Shown here piece by piece: positions 5,324 through 27,927 of a stretch of 50,177 bases of DNA. Below the pieces are notes generated by a model that saw nothing but the letters and a program-made list of their open reading frames with translations, had not been told where the DNA came from and did not search any database. The position numbers were made by a program, and so were the translations under genes. Position 1 is the stretch's first letter. Each line of letters begins with the position of its first letter. This DNA comes from a virus, in the IMG/VR virus record IMGVR_UViG_3300023082_000250, positions 1-50,177 of that record; one strand, written 5' to 3'.

Positions 5324-7972
5324 ATGTTATACGAAGATTATTTAAAAAGCAAGGTACGCCTTGCACAAAGTACAGGCTTTACGATTGAAGACAGCGAAAT
5401 AAACCCAGCTCTCAAACCTCACAATAGGTTGATGGTAAAATGGATGGTTGAGGGAGGAAGGAGAGCATGCTTCGCAAATTTTGGTCTACACAAAACTGTC
5501 ACTCAGTTAGAAGTCAACCGGATTATTTTAACCAAAACAGGAGGAAGAGGTTTGATAATCGCCCCTTTAGGTGTTCGTGCTGAATTTATCAAGGATGCAA
5601 TTAATATTCTGGGATGGGAAACGCCACCAAAGTTTGTTCGCAGAATTGAGGAATGTGAGGAAACAGGGATCTATCTGACGAATTATGAAACTGTCCGTGA
5701 CGGAAAATTAGACCCGCGCCTATTCAGCGTAGCCTGCCTTGATGAAGCGTCAATACTCAGGGGTTTGGGCGGCTCAAAAACATTCAGGGAATTCATGAGA
5801 TTATTCACCGGTGATGCCGGTCCTAACCGAAACAGGCGAGGTACTGATGTGGTACCCTATCGTTTTGTTGCAACTGCTACACCATCACCAAACGAATATA
5901 TTGAGTTGCTGGCTTACGCTGATTTCTTAGGGGTGATGGATGTCAGCCAGGCTAAAACCAGATTCTTCAAACGCGACAGTACAAAAGCCGATAACCTGAA
6001 GATCTATTCACACAAGGAAGAAGAGTTCTGGTTGTGGGTTGCCAGCTGGGCGCTATTCGTTACAAAGCCTTCAGATCTTACTGGTGATAATAAAGATGAT
6101 GAAGGGTACATACTTCCACCTCTGGATGTCCGCTGGCATGAGATATCATCGGATCATTCAAAAGCTGGTGTGGAACGTAGCGGCCAGTTCAAAGCATTTG
6201 CCGAAACAGCGATCGGGCTGGAAGGATCTGCCAAAGAAAAGAGGCTAAGTCTGACGAATCGTATTGCTAAAATGTATGACCTGTACCAGGAAGATCCTGA
6301 AGCACATATAATCCTATGGCATGATCTGGAAGACGAGCGTAGGATGATAGAGAAGATGTTTCCAGACTCCAAATCTGTTTTCGGTAGTCAGCCGCTGGAG
6401 ATCAGGGAAGTTATTGTTTCTGATTTTTCAACTGGCAATTTAAAGCAGTTGGCAGGTAAACCGTCCATGCTTGGTTCAGGTACGAACTTGCAGAAGTTTT
6501 GCAGCTGGGCAATTTACTCAGGTATCGGATTTAAGTTCAATGATTTCATCCAATCAATTCACAGGCTATTGCGCTTCGGACAGCCAGGTATCGTTCGAAT
6601 AGATCTGATTTATACAGAATCAGAGAGACAAATCAGGAAGCAGCTTGAAAGAAAATGGCAGCAACACAATTTAATGGTTAACAAGATGATTGATATCGTA
6701 AAACAATACGGCCTGTCCCATGCGGCTATGGCCCAAATGCTGACCCGGAAAATGGGCGTAGACAGACTCGAGGTTTCCGGTGACAGTTTCACTTATGTAA
6801 ATAGTGATAACGTTCTGGAACTTCCGAAAATAGAATCAGACTCAGTGGGATTGATCTTGACTTCTATACCATTTGCTACCCAATACGAGTATTCCCCAAA
6901 CTATGCAGATTACGGGCATTCTGAAAGCAATGAGGAGTTCTTCCAGCAAATGGATTACTCAACTCCAGAAGCGTTGCGCGTTTTAATGCCGGGGCGGATT
7001 GCAGCCATACATGTGAAGGACCGCATCATCCCGGGCGGCATCAATGGTCTTGGATTTCAAACGGTATACCCATTTCATATAGACGTAATACAGCATTACA
7101 CGAAACATGGTTTCAACTACATTGGAATGAAAACCATTGTTACCGATGTAGTTCGAGAAAACAGCCAGACCTACCGGTTAGGATGGACTGAACAGTGCAA
7201 GGATGGTTCCAAAATGGGAGTAGGGATGCCTGAATACCTGCTGCTATTCCGTAAGGCCCCAACGGACAATTCAAATGCCTATGCGGATATCCCTGTCGTG
7301 AAGCAAAAGAGAGAGTTCGACAAGAAAGCTGGGGACTTTACCAGTAAAGGATATTCACGGGCCAGGTGGCAGATGGACGCTCATGGATTTACCCGCAGCT
7401 GTGGGGATCGGCTTTTGGATCCTAATGAGGTTGCAAAGCTGGAATCTGATGCTATATTCAAATTATTCAAAACACATAGCTTAACTGAAATATGGGATTT
7501 TGAACAGGTTGTAAAGATAGCGGAAACTGTTGAGGCTCAGGGAAAGTTGCCCCCGGGATTTATGCTCCTGCAGCCTCAAAGCTGGACGACAGAGGTGTGG
7601 ACTGACGTCACACGGATGCTTACCTTAAACGGTTCCCAATGGAGCAATGGCCGGGAAGCACACGTGTGCCCGATGCAATTCGATATTGCCGATCGCGTGA
7701 TTGAACAGATGAGCAATCCTGGTGATCTTGTTTTGGATTACTTTGGTGGTTTGGGGACCGTGCCGCTTAGGGCGATTAAGAAAGGTCGCAAAGGTTACGG
7801 TATCGAATTGAACCCTATATATTTTCTTGATGCTGTCAGCTATTTGAAAGCAGAGGAATTGAAGCAGAATATCCCTACACTTTTTGATATGATTGAAGAT
7901 CTGAAAGATGACGGTGAAGAGGCGATGATCAGTGCTTTCAGCGATGCAGTTAAACAGGAGGGAGCAGCATAA
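5324..7972 (+). CDS. Helicase-like ATPase fused to an amino-DNA methyltransferase
   Basis: 882 aa in two parts. Residues 35-430 look like an SF2 helicase: FANFGLHKT (50-58) in the Walker A place, DEAS (140-143), TATPSPN (184-190) and HRLLRFGQ (413-420) as motif VI. The usual glycine before the Walker A lysine is His56, so ATP binding may be altered. Residues 485-840 are an N6-adenine/N4-cytosine methyltransferase: TSIPF (513-517) as a variant of the (D/N/S)PP(Y/F) catalytic motif, and DYFGGLGT (805-812) plus GIELN (826-830) for AdoMet binding. The order catalytic motif first, AdoMet motif last fits the beta class. It may couple translocation with methylation to guard phage DNA. TAATG links it to the next methyltransferase. 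Confidence 0.87.
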   Translation: MLYEDYLKSKVRLAQSTGFTIEDSEINPALKPHNRLMVKWMVEGGRRACFANFGLHKTVTQLEVNRIILTKTGGRGLIIAPLGVRAEFIKDAINILGWETPPKFVRRIEECEETGIYLTNYETVRDGKLDPRLFSVACLDEASILRGLGGSKTFREFMRLFTGDAGPNRNRRGTDVVPYRFVATATPSPNEYIELLAYADFLGVMDVSQAKTRFFKRDSTKADNLKIYSHKEEEFWLWVASWALFVTKPSDLTGDNKDDEGYILPPLDVRWHEISSDHSKAGVERSGQFKAFAETAIGLEGSAKEKRLSLTNRIAKMYDLYQEDPEAHIILWHDLEDERRMIEKMFPDSKSVFGSQPLEIREVIVSDFSTGNLKQLAGKPSMLGSGTNLQKFCSWAIYSGIGFKFNDFIQSIHRLLRFGQPGIVRIDLIYTESERQIRKQLERKWQQHNLMVNKMIDIVKQYGLSHAAMAQMLTRKMGVDRLEVSGDSFTYVNSDNVLELPKIESDSVGLILTSIPFATQYEYSPNYADYGHSESNEEFFQQMDYSTPEALRVLMPGRIAAIHVKDRIIPGGINGLGFQTVYPFHIDVIQHYTKHGFNYIGMKTIVTDVVRENSQTYRLGWTEQCKDGSKMGVGMPEYLLLFRKAPTDNSNAYADIPVVKQKREFDKKAGDFTSKGYSRARWQMDAHGFTRSCGDRLLDPNEVAKLESDAIFKLFKTHSLTEIWDFEQVVKIAETVEAQGKLPPGFMLLQPQSWTTEVWTDVTRMLTLNGSQWSNGREAHVCPMQFDIADRVIEQMSNPGDLVLDYFGGLGTVPLRAIKKGRKGYGIELNPIYFLDAVSYLKAEELKQNIPTLFDMIEDLKDDGEEAMISAFSDAVKQEGAA

Positions 7973-9768
7973 TGATAACGCCTCAACATTTTCTATATAC
8001 AGAAGGCGGTGGATTTCGGCCGGCCTTAGTGAAAAATCCGTTAGCTATAGAGTTCCTGATCATTGATTTATTCTGCGGCGCTGGCGGTACCTCGACAGGT
8101 TTCCATAATGCCATGTTTCATGGTAACCAGGTTGCGCTGGTGATGGCGTGTATCAATCATGATTTCAAGGCCATAAAATCACACTGGTTAAATCATCCTG
8201 ATATATTGCATTTCGAAGAAGATATCCGCACAGCCAATTTACAGCCGCTGGTTGATCTGTTAGCAAGGTACCGTATCATTTACCCCAATGCTAAAATAAT
8301 TCTTTGGGCGAGCCTTGAATGCACCAATTTCAGTAAAGCTAAAGGTGGTCAGGCACGTGATGCCGACAGCCGAACCCTTGCCGAGCATTTGGATCGCTAT
8401 ATTCTTGCCCTTGATCCTGATTATGTTCAGATTGAAAACGTAGTAGAGTTTCAGAGCTGGGGCCCGCTTGATGCTAAAGGTAAGCCTGTAAGCCGTAAGG
8501 CTGGTTCAGATTGGCTGAGGTGGTGTAAATACATTGACAGCCTCGGTTATAGAAATGAGTGGAAAGAAATGAACAGTGCTGATTTCGGTGCATATACTTC
8601 CCGTAACAGGTTATTCGGTTGTTTTGCAAAGGATGGGTTACCAATAGTATGGCCTGAAACTACTCATGCAAAAAAGCCTGGTCTTGATGGAATGTTCGGT
8701 GTGCAGCAGAAATGGAAGGCAGTAAAAGACGTTCTTGATTTCGATGATGAGGGATTAAGTATCTTCAACCGCAAGAAGCCGCTCGTTGATGCGTCACTCG
8801 AAAGGATTGAAGCGGGGCTGCACAAATTTGTTGCCGGCGGCAAAGATGCTTTTTTACTGAAGTATAACTCCATGGCGAAGAATGGAGACAGGAAACAATC
8901 GGTTCAATCCTTAGAAAAGCCTGCTCCCGTAATCCCTTGCCAGAATAGAACTGGTTTATGCTTCATATCAAAAAGCTTCAGCGGGAAACCTACTGGTAAA
9001 GTAATCCCTGTAACAGGTCCAGCCGGAACAATTACAACTTTTGGTGGTCAGTCCGTGGTAACTTGTAAACCATTTATTCTGAATACCAACTTTAAAAACG
9101 TTGGAAGTTCGATTGAAGAACCCGCAAAAACATTGCTTGCTAGCAGACATCACCCATACGTTGTCAGTCCGGCTTTCCTTGCTAAATATTATGGCAATGG
9201 CGATAATACCAGCTCGATTGAAGAACCGGCCGGCACGCTCGTGACTAAAGATCGTTTCTCTAAGATCCAGCCGATATTCATAAGCCGTGAATATAAAACA
9301 CCTACAGTATCTTCAATAAATGATCCTTTGGGTGCGTTATTAACCGTTCCCAAAGCAAATATTGTTAATTGCCAACCGTTCATACTCAACCCGTCACATG
9401 GCGGGCACTGCACCGGTACCGATGTTCCATGCGTTGTGATCGTTGCCAGGCAGGATAAAGCGCCGCTGTATTTAATACAATTTCAAGTTGATAGGCATGT
9501 AAGTGTTCCCATCTACGAGGATGATAGCGCTGTGATGATACGGATCAAAGAATTCATGGCGTTGTACGGCTTATCTGATATCAAAATGAGAATGCTGAAG
9601 GTCTCAGAACTCCTGCCTATTCAAGGATTCCCCCGGGATTATAAGCTATTCGGTAACCAGACTGATCAAAAGAAGTTTATAGGCAACAGCGTAGTTCCGC
9701 ACGTGGTAACTGCCTGGTGCGAGGCCATGGCAGATCGTACAAGAAGTTTAAGGATGGAGGTTGCATAA
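7972..9768 (+). CDS. C5-cytosine DNA methyltransferase
   Basis: 598 aa, with the ordered motifs of Dcm-type enzymes: motif I IDLFCGAGGT (31-40), motif IV LECTNFS (115-121) with probable nucleophile Cys117, motif VI ENVVEF (155-160), motif VIII TSRNRLFG (209-216) and motif X GNSVVP (571-576). Motif IV has ECT where PCQ is usual. The region between motifs VIII and X is long and holds several SIEEPAGTL-like repeats, where the target-recognition region is expected. It would transfer methyl from AdoMet to cytosine in a specific site. With the neighbouring adenine/N4-type enzyme it forms a modification block, probably against host restriction. No partner restriction enzyme is visible. Confidence 0.92.
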   Translation: MITPQHFLYTEGGGFRPALVKNPLAIEFLIIDLFCGAGGTSTGFHNAMFHGNQVALVMACINHDFKAIKSHWLNHPDILHFEEDIRTANLQPLVDLLARYRIIYPNAKIILWASLECTNFSKAKGGQARDADSRTLAEHLDRYILALDPDYVQIENVVEFQSWGPLDAKGKPVSRKAGSDWLRWCKYIDSLGYRNEWKEMNSADFGAYTSRNRLFGCFAKDGLPIVWPETTHAKKPGLDGMFGVQQKWKAVKDVLDFDDEGLSIFNRKKPLVDASLERIEAGLHKFVAGGKDAFLLKYNSMAKNGDRKQSVQSLEKPAPVIPCQNRTGLCFISKSFSGKPTGKVIPVTGPAGTITTFGGQSVVTCKPFILNTNFKNVGSSIEEPAKTLLASRHHPYVVSPAFLAKYYGNGDNTSSIEEPAGTLVTKDRFSKIQPIFISREYKTPTVSSINDPLGALLTVPKANIVNCQPFILNPSHGGHCTGTDVPCVVIVARQDKAPLYLIQFQVDRHVSVPIYEDDSAVMIRIKEFMALYGLSDIKMRMLKVSELLPIQGFPRDYKLFGNQTDQKKFIGNSVVPHVVTAWCEAMADRTRSLRMEVA

Positions 9769-10709
9769 TGTGTGAATTAACAGTATTATCATTTGGCGCT
9801 GGGCAGGACAGTACTTATATCCTGTACAAGATTATCAGGGATTCAGAATACAGAGCGGAATTTGTGAAGGGTAGATTATTGGTTCTAATGAGTGATACCG
9901 GTAATGAGCATGCTTATACTTATGAGCATATTAGCTTTATCAGACAGCTTTGCATTGATAATGAAATCGAGTTTTACCTGATTACGCCGGATATGGGTTT
10001 CCATTGCAAAACATGGCCTACTCTGGAATATCAGATGATAAAGAACAATTCGATCATGTCCATGATGATGCCTCGTAGCTGTACTGATAACCTTAAGATC
10101 AAACCATTCTATAATTTTCTGAATGTTTGGATTGCCACAGTTATTTATAATCAGGATATCCCAAACGAAACTCGCAATAGGGCTTGGATCAGTAGATTTT
10201 TCGCAGATCATGGAAAGATTAACGTAATCATAGGAATCGCTGCAGGTGAAGAAGGGCGTGTTGCAGTGACAAAGGCCAGCAAGAAAGCTGCCCAGATGGA
10301 TTTGTTCCAGAAGCCAAAAAAACGCAGCAACGTCTGGATGTCAACTTGTATCAACCGGTTTTATCCTATGATAATCGAAGGGATTGATCGGCAAATGGCC
10401 CAGGATTATATCAATGTTACACCATGGCCGCTACCTCCACCATCCAACTGCAAATTCTGCCCTTTCTTAACGAAGCAGGAACTACTATGGATGTACCGAT
10501 TTCACAGAGATGATTATAATGCTTTCGTGATCTATGAGATCAACAAGCTGAACCGTAATCCAGGTGTGCCGCGCAACCTGGGAGTAAAAGGCATGAAGTA
10601 TCTGCCGGAAGTCCTTGCCGAAGCAATTGAAGAGTACGGACACTGGACCGATGATCAGCTAAACGAATACAAAATGAGTCACGGGCACTGTGTTAAATCT
10701 CAATACTGA
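9768..10709 (+). CDS. PAPS-reductase-like PP-loop protein
   Basis: The ATG at 9768 overlaps the methyltransferase stop (TAATG), preferred to an upstream in-frame ATG at 9717. 313 aa. The PP-loop is SFGAGQDST (8-16), followed by a typical MSDTGNEHAYTYEH segment. A CKFCPF pair lies in the C-terminal third. This is the PAPS reductase/DndC-like ATP-pyrophosphatase superfamily, often found in phages beside methyltransferases. True sulfate reduction is unlikely because no assimilation genes are nearby. Adenylation during DNA or nucleotide modification is more plausible, as inference. Confidence 0.82.
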   Translation: MCELTVLSFGAGQDSTYILYKIIRDSEYRAEFVKGRLLVLMSDTGNEHAYTYEHISFIRQLCIDNEIEFYLITPDMGFHCKTWPTLEYQMIKNNSIMSMMMPRSCTDNLKIKPFYNFLNVWIATVIYNQDIPNETRNRAWISRFFADHGKINVIIGIAAGEEGRVAVTKASKKAAQMDLFQKPKKRSNVWMSTCINRFYPMIIEGIDRQMAQDYINVTPWPLPPPSNCKFCPFLTKQELLWMYRFHRDDYNAFVIYEINKLNRNPGVPRNLGVKGMKYLPEVLAEAIEEYGHWTDDQLNEYKMSHGHCVKSQY

Positions 10710-11266: not shown

Positions 11267-11290
11267 ATGCATAAAAGTAATATAATGCAT
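11267..11290 (+). promoter_or_regulatory. ATGCAT-N12-ATGCAT operator site
   Basis: Two perfect ATGCAT words at 11267 and 11285, each followed by AAA, lie directly after the HTH gene. About 10 bp downstream an AT-rich TAATTATT (11301-11308) stands where other sites have TAnnTTTG. It probably drives the structured leader and the replication genes. Confidence 0.75.
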
Positions 11291-11311
11291 AAATAGAAAA
11301 TAATTATTAAA

Positions 11312-11428
11312 TTAGCGGTCCCGGTTGTCAGCCGCAAGACATTCAATAATATCCCTGTAGACCTCCTTTGTGCCATACCCGGCACCGGAAACGAGCTGAC
11401 GACCTTAATGGTCTACAGGGATATTATT
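11312..11428 (+). ncRNA. Candidate structured leader RNA with 19-bp stem
   Basis: AATAATATCCCTGTAGACC (11345-11363) pairs perfectly with 11410-11428, a 19-bp stem enclosing 46 nt. A second helix, GGTTGTCAGC (11323-11332) with GCTGACGACC (11395-11404), has one G-U pair and crosses the first, so together they form a pseudoknot topology or alternative states. A small GTGCC/GGCAC hairpin lies between. It ends 19 nt before the initiator start. It shares TTAGCGGT and AAGACATT with the element at 15457-15541. No U-run follows, so it is not a plain terminator. Confidence 0.6.
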
Positions 11429-11447
11429 ACCTCAATTCAATACAAGT

Positions 11448-12233
11448 ATGGCTAAAACCAATGATTCTAAACCCAACGGGTACGCACTTAGCCGCGCGTG
11501 GTTTGACTTCGCTTTTGAAAATCAAGAGTTGATTACGCCAACGCATACCGCGATGTACGCGTGGTTTATTGAGTTGAATAACAGGATGGGCTGGTCAGTC
11601 AAATTCACTTCACCTGCGTCACAGACAATGATAGCTATCGGCCTGAAATCTTATAATACTTATAAAAAGGTATTTAATGATTTGGTTTCGTTTGGCTTTG
11701 TAAAAGTGATAATGGAAAGCAGAAATCAGTACACGGCTTGCATAATTGCCCTATCAAATTTTGATAAAGCACAGTATAAAGCACTAGACAATGCACTGTC
11801 GGAGCACGTGACAAAGCACTTGACAAAGCACTTGACAAAGCACACATCAAAGCAAGGTGAAAGCACAGGTGAAAGCAATGATAGTATAAATAAACAAGAA
11901 ACCTTAAACCTTAAACCAGAAACCAATAAACCTATAAGTGGGAAAACTACATTTTCCCCTCCCACACACATTGATGTCTGCAACTATTTCTCTGAGAAAG
12001 TCAATGAGACAAAATGGACTGATCATGACTGCAATTTCCAAGCGAAAAAGTTCATCGATTTCTACAGTTCGAAAAACTGGATGGTCGGAAAAAATAAAAT
12101 GGCAAACTGGAAGTCAGCTGCATCAGGATGGATCAACAGGTCACTTGAAACCAAAGTAACAATTGTGGAAGGACAGAAACCACAGAAAGGTTTTCAGGCT
12201 GCCATGGACATGTACAATAAACTAAAACTTTAA
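11448..12233 (+). CDS. Probable replication initiator (lambda O-like position)
   Basis: 261 aa. The N-terminal ~105 residues look like a winged-helix replication protein (ALSRAWFDFAFENQ, then LKSYNTYKKVFNDLVSFGFV). The middle (about 110-165) is low-complexity with EHVTKHLTKHLTKHTSKQ, encoded by DNA iterons. The C-terminal part has FIDFYSSKNWMVGKNKM and NWKSAASGWINR, a motif I associate with Bacteroidota phage DnaD/replication-like proteins. Iterons inside the initiator gene match lambda O logic. The downstream gene starts 4 nt later and would hold the lambda P position. Confidence 0.72.
   Translation: MAKTNDSKPNGYALSRAWFDFAFENQELITPTHTAMYAWFIELNNRMGWSVKFTSPASQTMIAIGLKSYNTYKKVFNDLVSFGFVKVIMESRNQYTACIIALSNFDKAQYKALDNALSEHVTKHLTKHLTKHTSKQGESTGESNDSINKQETLNLKPETNKPISGKTTFSPPTHIDVCNYFSEKVNETKWTDHDCNFQAKKFIDFYSSKNWMVGKNKMANWKSAASGWINRSLETKVTIVEGQKPQKGFQAAMDMYNKLKL
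11763..11876 (+). repeat. 12-bp iteron array, candidate replication origin
   Basis: About ten repeats with core AAAGCAC occur every 12 bp (one step is 11 bp). Two adjacent copies, ACAAAGCACTTG at 11811 and 11823, are identical, and the outer ones are more diverged. The array lies within the probable initiator gene. An A/T-rich stretch with AAACCTTAAACCTTAAACC-type repeats follows at about 11880-11935 and could be the unwinding region. Confidence 0.65.
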
Positions 12234-15396: not shown

Positions 15397-15436
15397 ATGC
15401 ATAAACGTAAACATGTGCATAATTTATATATATTTG
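15397..15436 (+). promoter_or_regulatory. ATGCAT-type operator plus TATATTTG promoter
   Basis: ATGCAT (15397) and GTGCAT (15415) keep the 18-bp spacing. TATATTTG at 15429-15436 fits the Bacteroidota -7 consensus TAnnTTTG and starts 8 bp after the operator. The operator thus covers the -33 region. Transcription would begin near 15442, just before the structured leader. Confidence 0.75.
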
Positions 15437-15456
15437 AATTATCAAACAGCTGCATA

Positions 15457-15541
15457 CTTCGACTTAGCGGTTTAAAGACATTTTAAGAGGGTTTATCTCT
15501 GGGGAGCGAGTCGAAGCGCAAACTGGGGACAAACCCTTTTT
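15457..15541 (+). ncRNA. Candidate structured leader RNA, pseudoknot topology
   Basis: CTTCGACT (15457-15464) pairs perfectly with AGTCGAAG (15509-15516). AGGGTTT (15488-15494) pairs perfectly with AAACCCT (15531-15537), followed by TTTTTCT. The two helices cross. A CTC/GAG mini-hairpin lies at 15497-15506. The second helix plus U-run resembles an intrinsic terminator with a long loop, so the first helix could control it. It contains TTAGCGGT (15464) and AAGACATT (15475), also present at 11312 and 11336. It sits 20 nt before a small membrane protein gene. Confidence 0.6.
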
Positions 15542-15560: not shown

Positions 15561-15734
15561 ATGAAAAAGCTCAAAGAAAGAGTATTCGCGGCAATGTTCG
15601 CGCTGTTCATCCTTATGATAGGATCCGGATGTCTGTATGCTATGGCTAACCAGCTGGACAAAGCGGCACTGGCCAGATCTGTGGAGTCGTTCCCTGACCA
15701 CTCTGAAATCACTGCTCAAACTTTAAAACACTAA
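15561..15734 (+). CDS. Small membrane protein, 57 aa
   Basis: MKKLKERVFAAMFALFILMI begins a basic N-terminus and a single hydrophobic segment (about 8-29) containing GSGC, which could be a membrane anchor or a lipobox-like signal (Cys24). The rest is short and polar. It is the first gene after the structured leader and is followed after 3 nt by another membrane protein. No function recognised. Confidence 0.65.
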   Translation: MKKLKERVFAAMFALFILMIGSGCLYAMANQLDKAALARSVESFPDHSEITAQTLKH

Positions 15735-21276: not shown

Positions 21277-21317
21277 ATGCATGAAGGTAAACTTATGCAT
21301 AATTGTGTTTATCTTTG
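21277..21317 (+). promoter_or_regulatory. ATGCAT-type operator plus TATCTTTG promoter
   Basis: ATGCAT (21277) and ATGCAT (21295) at 18-bp spacing, then TATCTTTG (21310-21317) starting 9 bp later. The next ATG is at 21324, so the mRNA may be nearly leaderless. It stands in front of the packaging operon. Confidence 0.8.
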
Positions 21318-26749: not shown

Positions 26750-26790
26750 ATGCATAAAGACAAATAATCGCATAAATGTATTTATCTTTG
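26750..26790 (+). promoter_or_regulatory. ATGCAT-type operator plus TATCTTTG promoter
   Basis: ATGCAT (26750) and TCGCAT (26768) at 18-bp spacing, then TATCTTTG (26783-26790) starting 9 bp later. It begins 4 nt after the portal stop. Start of transcription is expected near 26796. Confidence 0.75.
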
Positions 26791-26832
26791 GTTTTCCATA
26801 AAGGTATTTGGTTTCATAGTTTGGTTTAGGTT

Positions 26833-26867
26833 AGGCTAAGGGCGTGGTTTCCCTTAGCCTTTTTTAT
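26833..26867 (+). terminator. Intrinsic terminator in leader
   Basis: AGGCTAAGGG (26833-26842) pairs with CCCTTAGCCT (26851-26860), 10 bp, loop 8 nt, followed by TTTTTTA. It lies only about 40 nt downstream of the TATCTTTG promoter and 14 nt before the next gene, so it could end a tiny RNA or act as an attenuator. Three TTTGGTTT repeats (26787, 26807, 26820) precede it. Confidence 0.85.
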
Positions 26868-26880
26868 TTAAAAATCCATT

Positions 26881-27927
26881 ATGCCCAACAATATAGAAAG
26901 GGAATATGAGGCCAGACACCTGGCAAATATTCAAAAGGCGCAAAAGAAGGTTGATGCCATTTATAGGGCTGTAATTGACAAAATATATCAGAGAGCTGCC
27001 GGTCTCAAACTTAAAGGAACGGTGTTCCGTATTTCAGATTATCCAGAGTTCAACAAAGAGGTTGACAGGATCCTAATCACCTTCCGGAAAGATGTAGATA
27101 TTACCCTGGTAAACGGTATTAAGGGTGAATGGGAACTGTCCACTGAAAAGAATGCAAATGTGATTCATAAGGCCTATGGAAACATCATTGATCAGGTAGA
27201 TCGCATGTTGTATGATCCACAGGCGGCTGCCATGAAGGAGTTCACCGAGCGGAAGGTAGTTGGCTTAGGCTTGTCTGATCGGGTGCATAGATACACCAAT
27301 CAGTTTCAAAATGAAATCGAGCAGAATCTCTTTGCAGGATTGAATGAGGGGCGGTCTGCTGCTGAAATGGCCAGGGATCATCTCCAATATTTACAGCAAC
27401 CGGATAAACTATTCAGGAGGGTTAAAGCAATTACAAGATCTGGTAAAGCGATTCTCAGGTTATCCAAAGCGGCGCAGGAATATAAACCAGGGAAAGGTAT
27501 CTACCGCTCCAGTAGACGCAACGCTATGCGATTAACCCGCGATACTGTAAACGATAGCTACCGTCAAGCTGATATGAACAGGTATCAGACTTTACCCTTT
27601 GTCCTTGGCTATGAGGTTAACTTATCAAATAATCACCCTCGTACCGACATCTGCGATGATCTGAAAGGTACCTATCCGAAGACCTTCGTATGGCTGAAGT
27701 GGCACAATCAATGCATTTGCTTCTGTACCACAAAAATGGCCAGCCCAGAAGAGTTCGATAGATACCAACAGGCCCTGATCGATGGCACCGCTGATAATTT
27801 CAAGTTCACCGGGGGAGTAATTTCACTGCCAAATAACTTTGATAACTATGTGGCGAACAACCAGGGTAAGATGGATAAGTGGAAGCGTAAACCGGACTGG
27901 GTACTGATGAATGATGTTCAGATTTAA
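26881..27927 (+). CDS. Head morphogenesis/minor capsid protein (Mu F/SPP1 gp7-like)
   Basis: 348 aa. The C-terminal region holds the typical motif: LSNNHPRTDICDDLKGTYP then KWHNQCICFC, a His/Cys pattern as in Mu gpF-like proteins. The N-terminal two thirds are helical. Proteins of this family associate with the portal or procapsid and help assembly and genome ejection. Position after the portal fits. Its stop overlaps the end of the opposite-strand gene by 4 nt. Confidence 0.87.
   Translation: MPNNIEREYEARHLANIQKAQKKVDAIYRAVIDKIYQRAAGLKLKGTVFRISDYPEFNKEVDRILITFRKDVDITLVNGIKGEWELSTEKNANVIHKAYGNIIDQVDRMLYDPQAAAMKEFTERKVVGLGLSDRVHRYTNQFQNEIEQNLFAGLNEGRSAAEMARDHLQYLQQPDKLFRRVKAITRSGKAILRLSKAAQEYKPGKGIYRSSRRNAMRLTRDTVNDSYRQADMNRYQTLPFVLGYEVNLSNNHPRTDICDDLKGTYPKTFVWLKWHNQCICFCTTKMASPEEFDRYQQALIDGTADNFKFTGGVISLPNNFDNYVANNQGKMDKWKRKPDWVLMNDVQI

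Follow-up and report, generated by a model that had tools for sequence, protein, structure and literature searches.

Several known RNAs offer points of comparison for the element described here. The put sites of HK022 are two simple hairpins and the nut sites of lambda a short hairpin, and both are promoter-proximal and occur in several early operons per phage. The pseudoknot operator of T4 gene 32 is small and specific for its own protein. The CI/seqA leader of P4 and the IsrK leader of Gifsy-1 each head a phage operon, which in P4 contains the replication genes; the IsrK paper describes premature termination and read-through forms of these leaders, and an action through pairing between molecules, at sites that include seqA and seqC (PMC4825925). 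The pistol ribozyme, which also occurs in bacteriophage DNA, has a hairpin loop pseudoknotted with a strand inside a second helix, and is defined by ten conserved nucleotides and a cleavage site (PMC4604425). STAXI is a pseudoknot motif arranged as a tandem array; it neighbours genes whose proteins handle DNA, and a structured-RNA catalogue lists it for Enterobacteriales (PMC2864571).

The locus analysed here lies in a viral DNA of 50,177 nucleotides, an IMG/VR virus record, the whole of which we call the window. Its first structured leader, element 1, and the features around it are as follows.

11268..11292, no strand assigned: putative operator 5' of element 1, with two TGCATAA half-sites (11268-11274, 11286-11292)
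11304..11314, plus strand: conserved AT-rich stretch that runs up to P1, reading TAATTAnTAAWTTAG in relatives and kept in the nine-sequence alignment
11315..11335, plus strand: P1 hairpin, GCGG (11315-11318) with CCGC (11332-11335); A sits in its loop
11323..11332, plus strand: A (GGTTGTCAGC), 5' strand of the crossing helix, with compensatory changes and all (100%) cells paired
11333..11344, plus strand: L1 loop, CGCAAGACATTC, near-invariant in close relatives
11345..11363, plus strand: B, 5' strand of the 19-bp stem, with both-side changes at 9 of 19 pairs
11370..11385, plus strand: C hairpin within the B loop, GTGCC (11370-11374) with GGCAC (11381-11385)
11395..11404, plus strand: A' (GCTGACGACC), 3' strand of the crossing helix
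11410..11428, plus strand: B', 3' strand of the 19-bp stem; the ATG lies 19 nt beyond its end
11448..12233, plus strand: first gene after element 1, 261 aa, a probable replication initiator

As the preliminary description had proposed, B and B' form an exact 19-nt inverted repeat with 46 nt between its arms, a 10-nt helix (A/A'; 9 Watson-Crick pairs and one G.U) crosses it in pseudoknot order, and the GTGCC/GGCAC hairpin lies in the middle. The P1 hairpin and a second element at 15429-15540 are features of the window that it did not contain. C11332 belongs both to P1 and to the final pair of helix A. The RNA fold of 11300-11440 reaches -46.2 kcal/mol (z = -4.95), a stability that none of 200 shuffles attains; this value leaves out the crossing helix, as the folding program does not handle pseudoknots; computed as a duplex, that helix comes to about -16.3 kcal/mol. 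With a short L3 (2-10 nt) and an L1 of 12-28 nt, a geometric argument, not a model, would allow both helices to coexist, packed side by side. A strict, promoter-free scan of the whole 50-kb window returned element 1 as its sole match, together with the minus-strand mirror reading. The AT-rich stretch at 11304..11314 is a possible non-canonical promoter, the exact TAnnTTTG box being absent. L1, whose AAGACATT recurs in the L1 of element 2 and of the related loci L345 and L351, is the best available candidate for a binding site of a protein or another RNA.

The structure is conserved in related phages. Among relatives of the downstream protein, leader homologues are clear in two loci (L115 and L122). 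A pattern taken from the conserved 5' part of the leader brought up further examples both in viral contigs and in named genomes, where the matches came from Pedobacter antarcticus and P. metabolipauper. Nine distinct sequences of these Pedobacter-phage homologues, the close family, align end to end, with 99.6% of cells paired over P1, A and B and double-sided changes at eleven pairs, nine in B and two in crossing helix A. In pairing percentage, count of doubly changed pairs and covariation score alike, no shuffle equals the observed value, and shifting the partner columns by 1-3 lowers pairing to 32-52%. The compensatory pattern that the preliminary description had suggested looking for is therefore found in both crossing helices among nine homologues and, together with the loss of pairing on sliding, indicates that the structure is conserved as a pseudoknot. 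P1 is paired in 9 of 9 homologues with a near-invariant sequence, and so shows little covariation; other families have a short P1 of their own, with modest support, since an average of 21% of shuffled flanks score as high as the real ones. The C hairpin varies between relatives and is missing from many families.

A second alignment, of twenty elements from a freshwater clade, is likewise paired in 99.6% of its cells; its 17 doubly changed pairs are distributed over the crossing helix (7/9), B (3/11), a bulged extension of B (3/4) and the inner hairpin that is the counterpart of C (4/4). Flanks and loops vary little in sequence in this clade, and A is its most varied strand, with 14 variants against 4 for B and pairing retained. 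Over the two alignments, non-Watson-Crick cells comprise 67 G.U on the plus strand and a single A.C. As A.C is the appearance of a G.U on the opposite strand, this asymmetry points to a plus-strand RNA and not to a DNA cruciform. That element 1 is a real plus-strand RNA pseudoknot is well supported by these sequence comparisons.

The window holds a second copy of the same design.

15429-15540, plus strand: element 2, whole, followed by a small unrelated gene
15429..15436, plus strand: exact Bacteroidota-type promoter box of element 2, TATATTTG
15457..15464, plus strand: A of element 2, CTTCGACT
15485..15499, plus strand: B of element 2, AAGAGGGTTTATCTC, with two wobbles and one mismatch against B'
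15509..15516, plus strand: A' of element 2, AGTCGAAG
15526..15540, plus strand: B' of element 2, leading into a T-rich tail
15561..15734, plus strand: small open reading frame after element 2, 57 aa with a hydrophobic N-terminus, read from the sequence

The counterpart of this B in L351 pairs without mismatch, and the L1 of element 2 includes AAAGACATTTT, comparable with AAGACATTC in element 1. Whole-genome scans located extra elements away from the rep gene, and two other genomes (G003 and G004) carry the same element as element 2 with a different gene behind it. The TGCATAA repeat that precedes element 1 also precedes promoters at 15429 (sites 15398 and 15416), 21310 (21296) and 26783 (26751). 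Within one genome, the upstream repeats are phage-specific and common to elements 1 and 2, being TGCATAA pairs in the window and sites like GTTCTAAAATAGAACATATAGAAC in G004. Two of the four TGCATAA promoters of the window have pseudoknot leaders, one has a plain hairpin leader and one is nearly leaderless: at 21310 the ATG follows with almost no leader, and at 26783-26881 the box TATCTTTG is followed by a terminator-like plain hairpin (GGCTAAGGG/CCCTTAGCC) and T-run, directly 5' of the ATG and with no crossing helix. This arrangement suggests that one phage regulator controls all four putative promoters.

The genes behind the element are diverse. The 261-aa protein shares phrog_15768 with the protein at locus L145, which also matches replication-initiation PHROGs; the 261-aa protein itself has no Pfam match. 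Within the close family the following gene is a PHROG replication initiation protein (L160 type), a Lin1244_N replication initiation protein (L148), an O-like replication initiation protein (L145) or the probable initiator type of the window and L115, which has a C-terminal family in common with L145. A model built from the nine-sequence alignment (R1) found two more loci in genomes of the close family: one element (L254) precedes a DUF6291 protein carrying that same C-terminal family, and the other (L255, one genome) precedes a PIF1-like helicase. Replication initiators of at least four kinds thus lie downstream of the element, and a DnaA-domain or HTH gene is frequent upstream of it. Since several unrelated initiator families and a PIF1-like helicase follow, the element is not tied to one protein. 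The preliminary description had placed it in the leader of the replication initiator; the position 5' of that gene stands, but the association is not specific to the initiator, given the unrelated initiators, the helicase and the small gene behind element 2. Element 1 may plausibly control initiator synthesis. Elsewhere in the window, a large protein with DNA helicase and DNA methyltransferase family matches (5324-9768) is followed by a C5 cytosine methyltransferase and next by a PAPS-reductase-like gene (9717-10709).

The same helix order was seen by eye in leaders that R1 had missed. A purpose-written scanner, requiring TAnn(T/C)TTG, an A strand starting 8-34 nt past the start of the box and then B, A' and B', found 36 distinct elements in the 547 kb that surround rep relatives, a number that does not measure prevalence because the thresholds were fixed after examples had been seen and the loci were picked for rep relatives. 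On the reverse strand the scanner gave 2 elements. Dinucleotide-preserving shuffles (1.09 Mb) and other viral contigs (537 kb) gave none, and 400 kb of Pedobacter chromosome gave one weak, AT-rich match. About a dozen of the 27 relatives of the downstream protein have the element in some form. Most families have a Bacteroidota-type promoter just 5' and an ATG just 3' of the element, 2-32 nt past B' in most families other than the freshwater clade. In 60 distinct freshwater cases the ATG lies 9-13 nt past B' and the first genes belong to many unrelated families; such constant spacing within a clade may come from the leader being inherited whole, and not from function. A T-rich tail stands behind B' in most divergent families, and the Pedobacter-phage form has neither a clear T-run nor an exact promoter box. 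No convincing element was found in Cellulophaga phi10:1, Croceibacter P2559S or Flavobacterium 11b and 6H, so the class is not universal. At about 7963-7800 of the Flavobacterium phage 6H record (L380), minus strand, the A/B/A'/B' order is strongly represented 5' of the tape-measure gene, its A helix being 17 bp long. R1 detects none of the freshwater or marine families, which may therefore be convergent; what supports a common origin of the Pedobacter, freshwater and marine forms is their architecture, position and A-rich L1, not a profile match, and convergence is possible.

Known RNA families do not account for the element. At gathering thresholds, no Rfam 15 match in the window and 20 element loci overlaps an element; the sole match is a DUF805b RNA (RF02914) at L134:1777-1809, which a freshwater element follows 0.8 kb downstream. 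When the two window elements, L126 and L272 were scanned with relaxed settings, pistol did not come up, and HDV had no match even at relaxed thresholds. The earlier impression that no known ribozyme or riboswitch fits is thus borne out by Rfam at gathering and relaxed thresholds. STAXI, a tandem array, likewise had no Rfam match here, and in the parts drawn on here of the catalogue, which includes Bacteroidetes motifs, no motif was recognised as the element; selected motifs of that catalogue were submitted to Rfam (PMC2864571). Comparison of the leader with phage records by blastn gave only short AT-rich chance matches.

Several other leads were tried and rejected. A pattern of the stem alone matched 111 viral stretches of no evident relation. 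For a hammerhead, the window has both CUGACGA and GAAA, but their order is wrong, and L115 does not retain CUGACGA. Hairpin C might mask the start codon, as its GCCATAC could pair with the GTATGGC there, but L115 does not retain this complementarity. G006 and G007 have a third element (L348:2138, L353:19572) whose GAATGTCTT is complementary to AAGACATTC, the conserved L1 motif of element 1 in these same genomes, and this was treated as probably chance: such a 9-mer does not occur outside their own elements in the window and G004, and the remaining copies, in G003 and G006, belong to a single stretch common to both.

On balance, we consider the element probably to be a structured 5' leader that acts in cis on early phage operons and belongs to a class outside Rfam. 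Transcription would start near the 5' edge of P1, A' would pair with A on emerging, and the knot would decide between two outcomes, closure of B to form a terminator or roadblock and an accessible start codon. The leader would thereby set or gate the output of its operon, that of the replication initiator for element 1 and of the 15561 gene for element 2, and a phage regulator would probably govern the promoters through operators common to both copies. The regulatory step, control in cis, is what we infer from the arrangement of these parts. The ATG is so close that a gene transcript from the upstream promoter must traverse the element, and the T-runs past B' in many families suggest conditional or leaky termination. 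A terminator scan restricted to loops of 3-8 nt did not include element 1, whose stem is not trailed by a T-run. Because the Pedobacter-phage form has no clear T-run or exact box, a single mechanism for all families is an assumption, and what the families have in common may be control of translation, or stabilisation.

The promoter immediately 5', the T-run past B' in many families and the placement independent of the gene would also suit a stand-alone small RNA of about 100 nt, with its own promoter and terminator, that acts in trans on phage or host targets while the gene is served by read-through. We regard this as rather unlikely, since in nearly all cases the short distance from B' to the ATG leaves no space for a second promoter and points to a leader, and the Pedobacter-phage form has no T-run. 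An mRNA-stabilising or translation-enhancing 5' end without a switch, in which helices at both ends of the leader protect the message, fits the gene-independent location at the very 5' end, but alone would leave the near-invariant L1 and the T-runs unexplained, and we assign it a low probability.

Slightly lower still is the chance of an immunity RNA like P4 CI or c4, in which a prophage would use its short terminated leader to shut down the replication operon of an incoming relative, by pairing with the nascent leader of that operon; A/A' would determine the specificity. The location before replication genes agrees with it, as does the variety of the freshwater A strand despite retained pairing, and P4 is described as operating so in the IsrK paper (PMC4825925). 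However, no exact further copy of A or A' exists in the window, where one-mismatch matches fall only at chance-like sites, so that no pairing target like seqA or seqC was found; the A sequences differ between the two copies of one genome; the inner hairpin and B extension covary as strongly as A, so that a special diversification of A is not established; and fold and host group differ from those of P4 CI and IsrK.

The preliminary description had also raised a part in the origin. DnaA-domain and initiator genes adjoin the element, yet a replication origin or primer RNA is very unlikely, given that the same genomes carry second copies before non-replication genes, that the G.U pattern is strand-specific and that more origin-like repeats lie inside the initiator gene. 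These direct repeats at 11813-11845, about three TTGACAAAGCAC-like copies, recall an origin within the initiator gene as in lambda O, or could merely encode a protein linker. A self-cleaving ribozyme is hardly credible: the connectivity in the window and other P1-bearing families, a P1-loop pseudoknot into an enclosing second helix, is near that of pistol (PMC4604425), but pistol and HDV matches are absent, the pseudoknot strand follows the inner hairpin here and precedes it in pistol, B is far longer, and the pistol helix between pseudoknot strand and cleavage side is missing.

The cis-acting leader thus resembles put and nut in being promoter-proximal and present in several early operons of one phage, and differs from them in that a pseudoknot adjoins the start codon. 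As in T4 gene 32, a pseudoknot lies in the leader of a phage replication gene, but here many unrelated genes follow. More tentatively, and at somewhat long odds, the families may form a single ancestral class, mostly in Bacteroidota phages, in which a multi-copy, portable promoter-plus-knot leader serves as a phage-specific expression switch, acting on read-through or translation in answer to a phage or host factor. If true, such a switch would have a role comparable to nut or put with a new architecture. A recurrent, covarying pseudoknot leader absent from Rfam can supply a covariance model for annotation and a portable leader open to direct reporter assays. Early gene control in Bacteroidota phages is poorly understood, and this pseudoknot leader offers a concrete handle on when their DNA replication starts.
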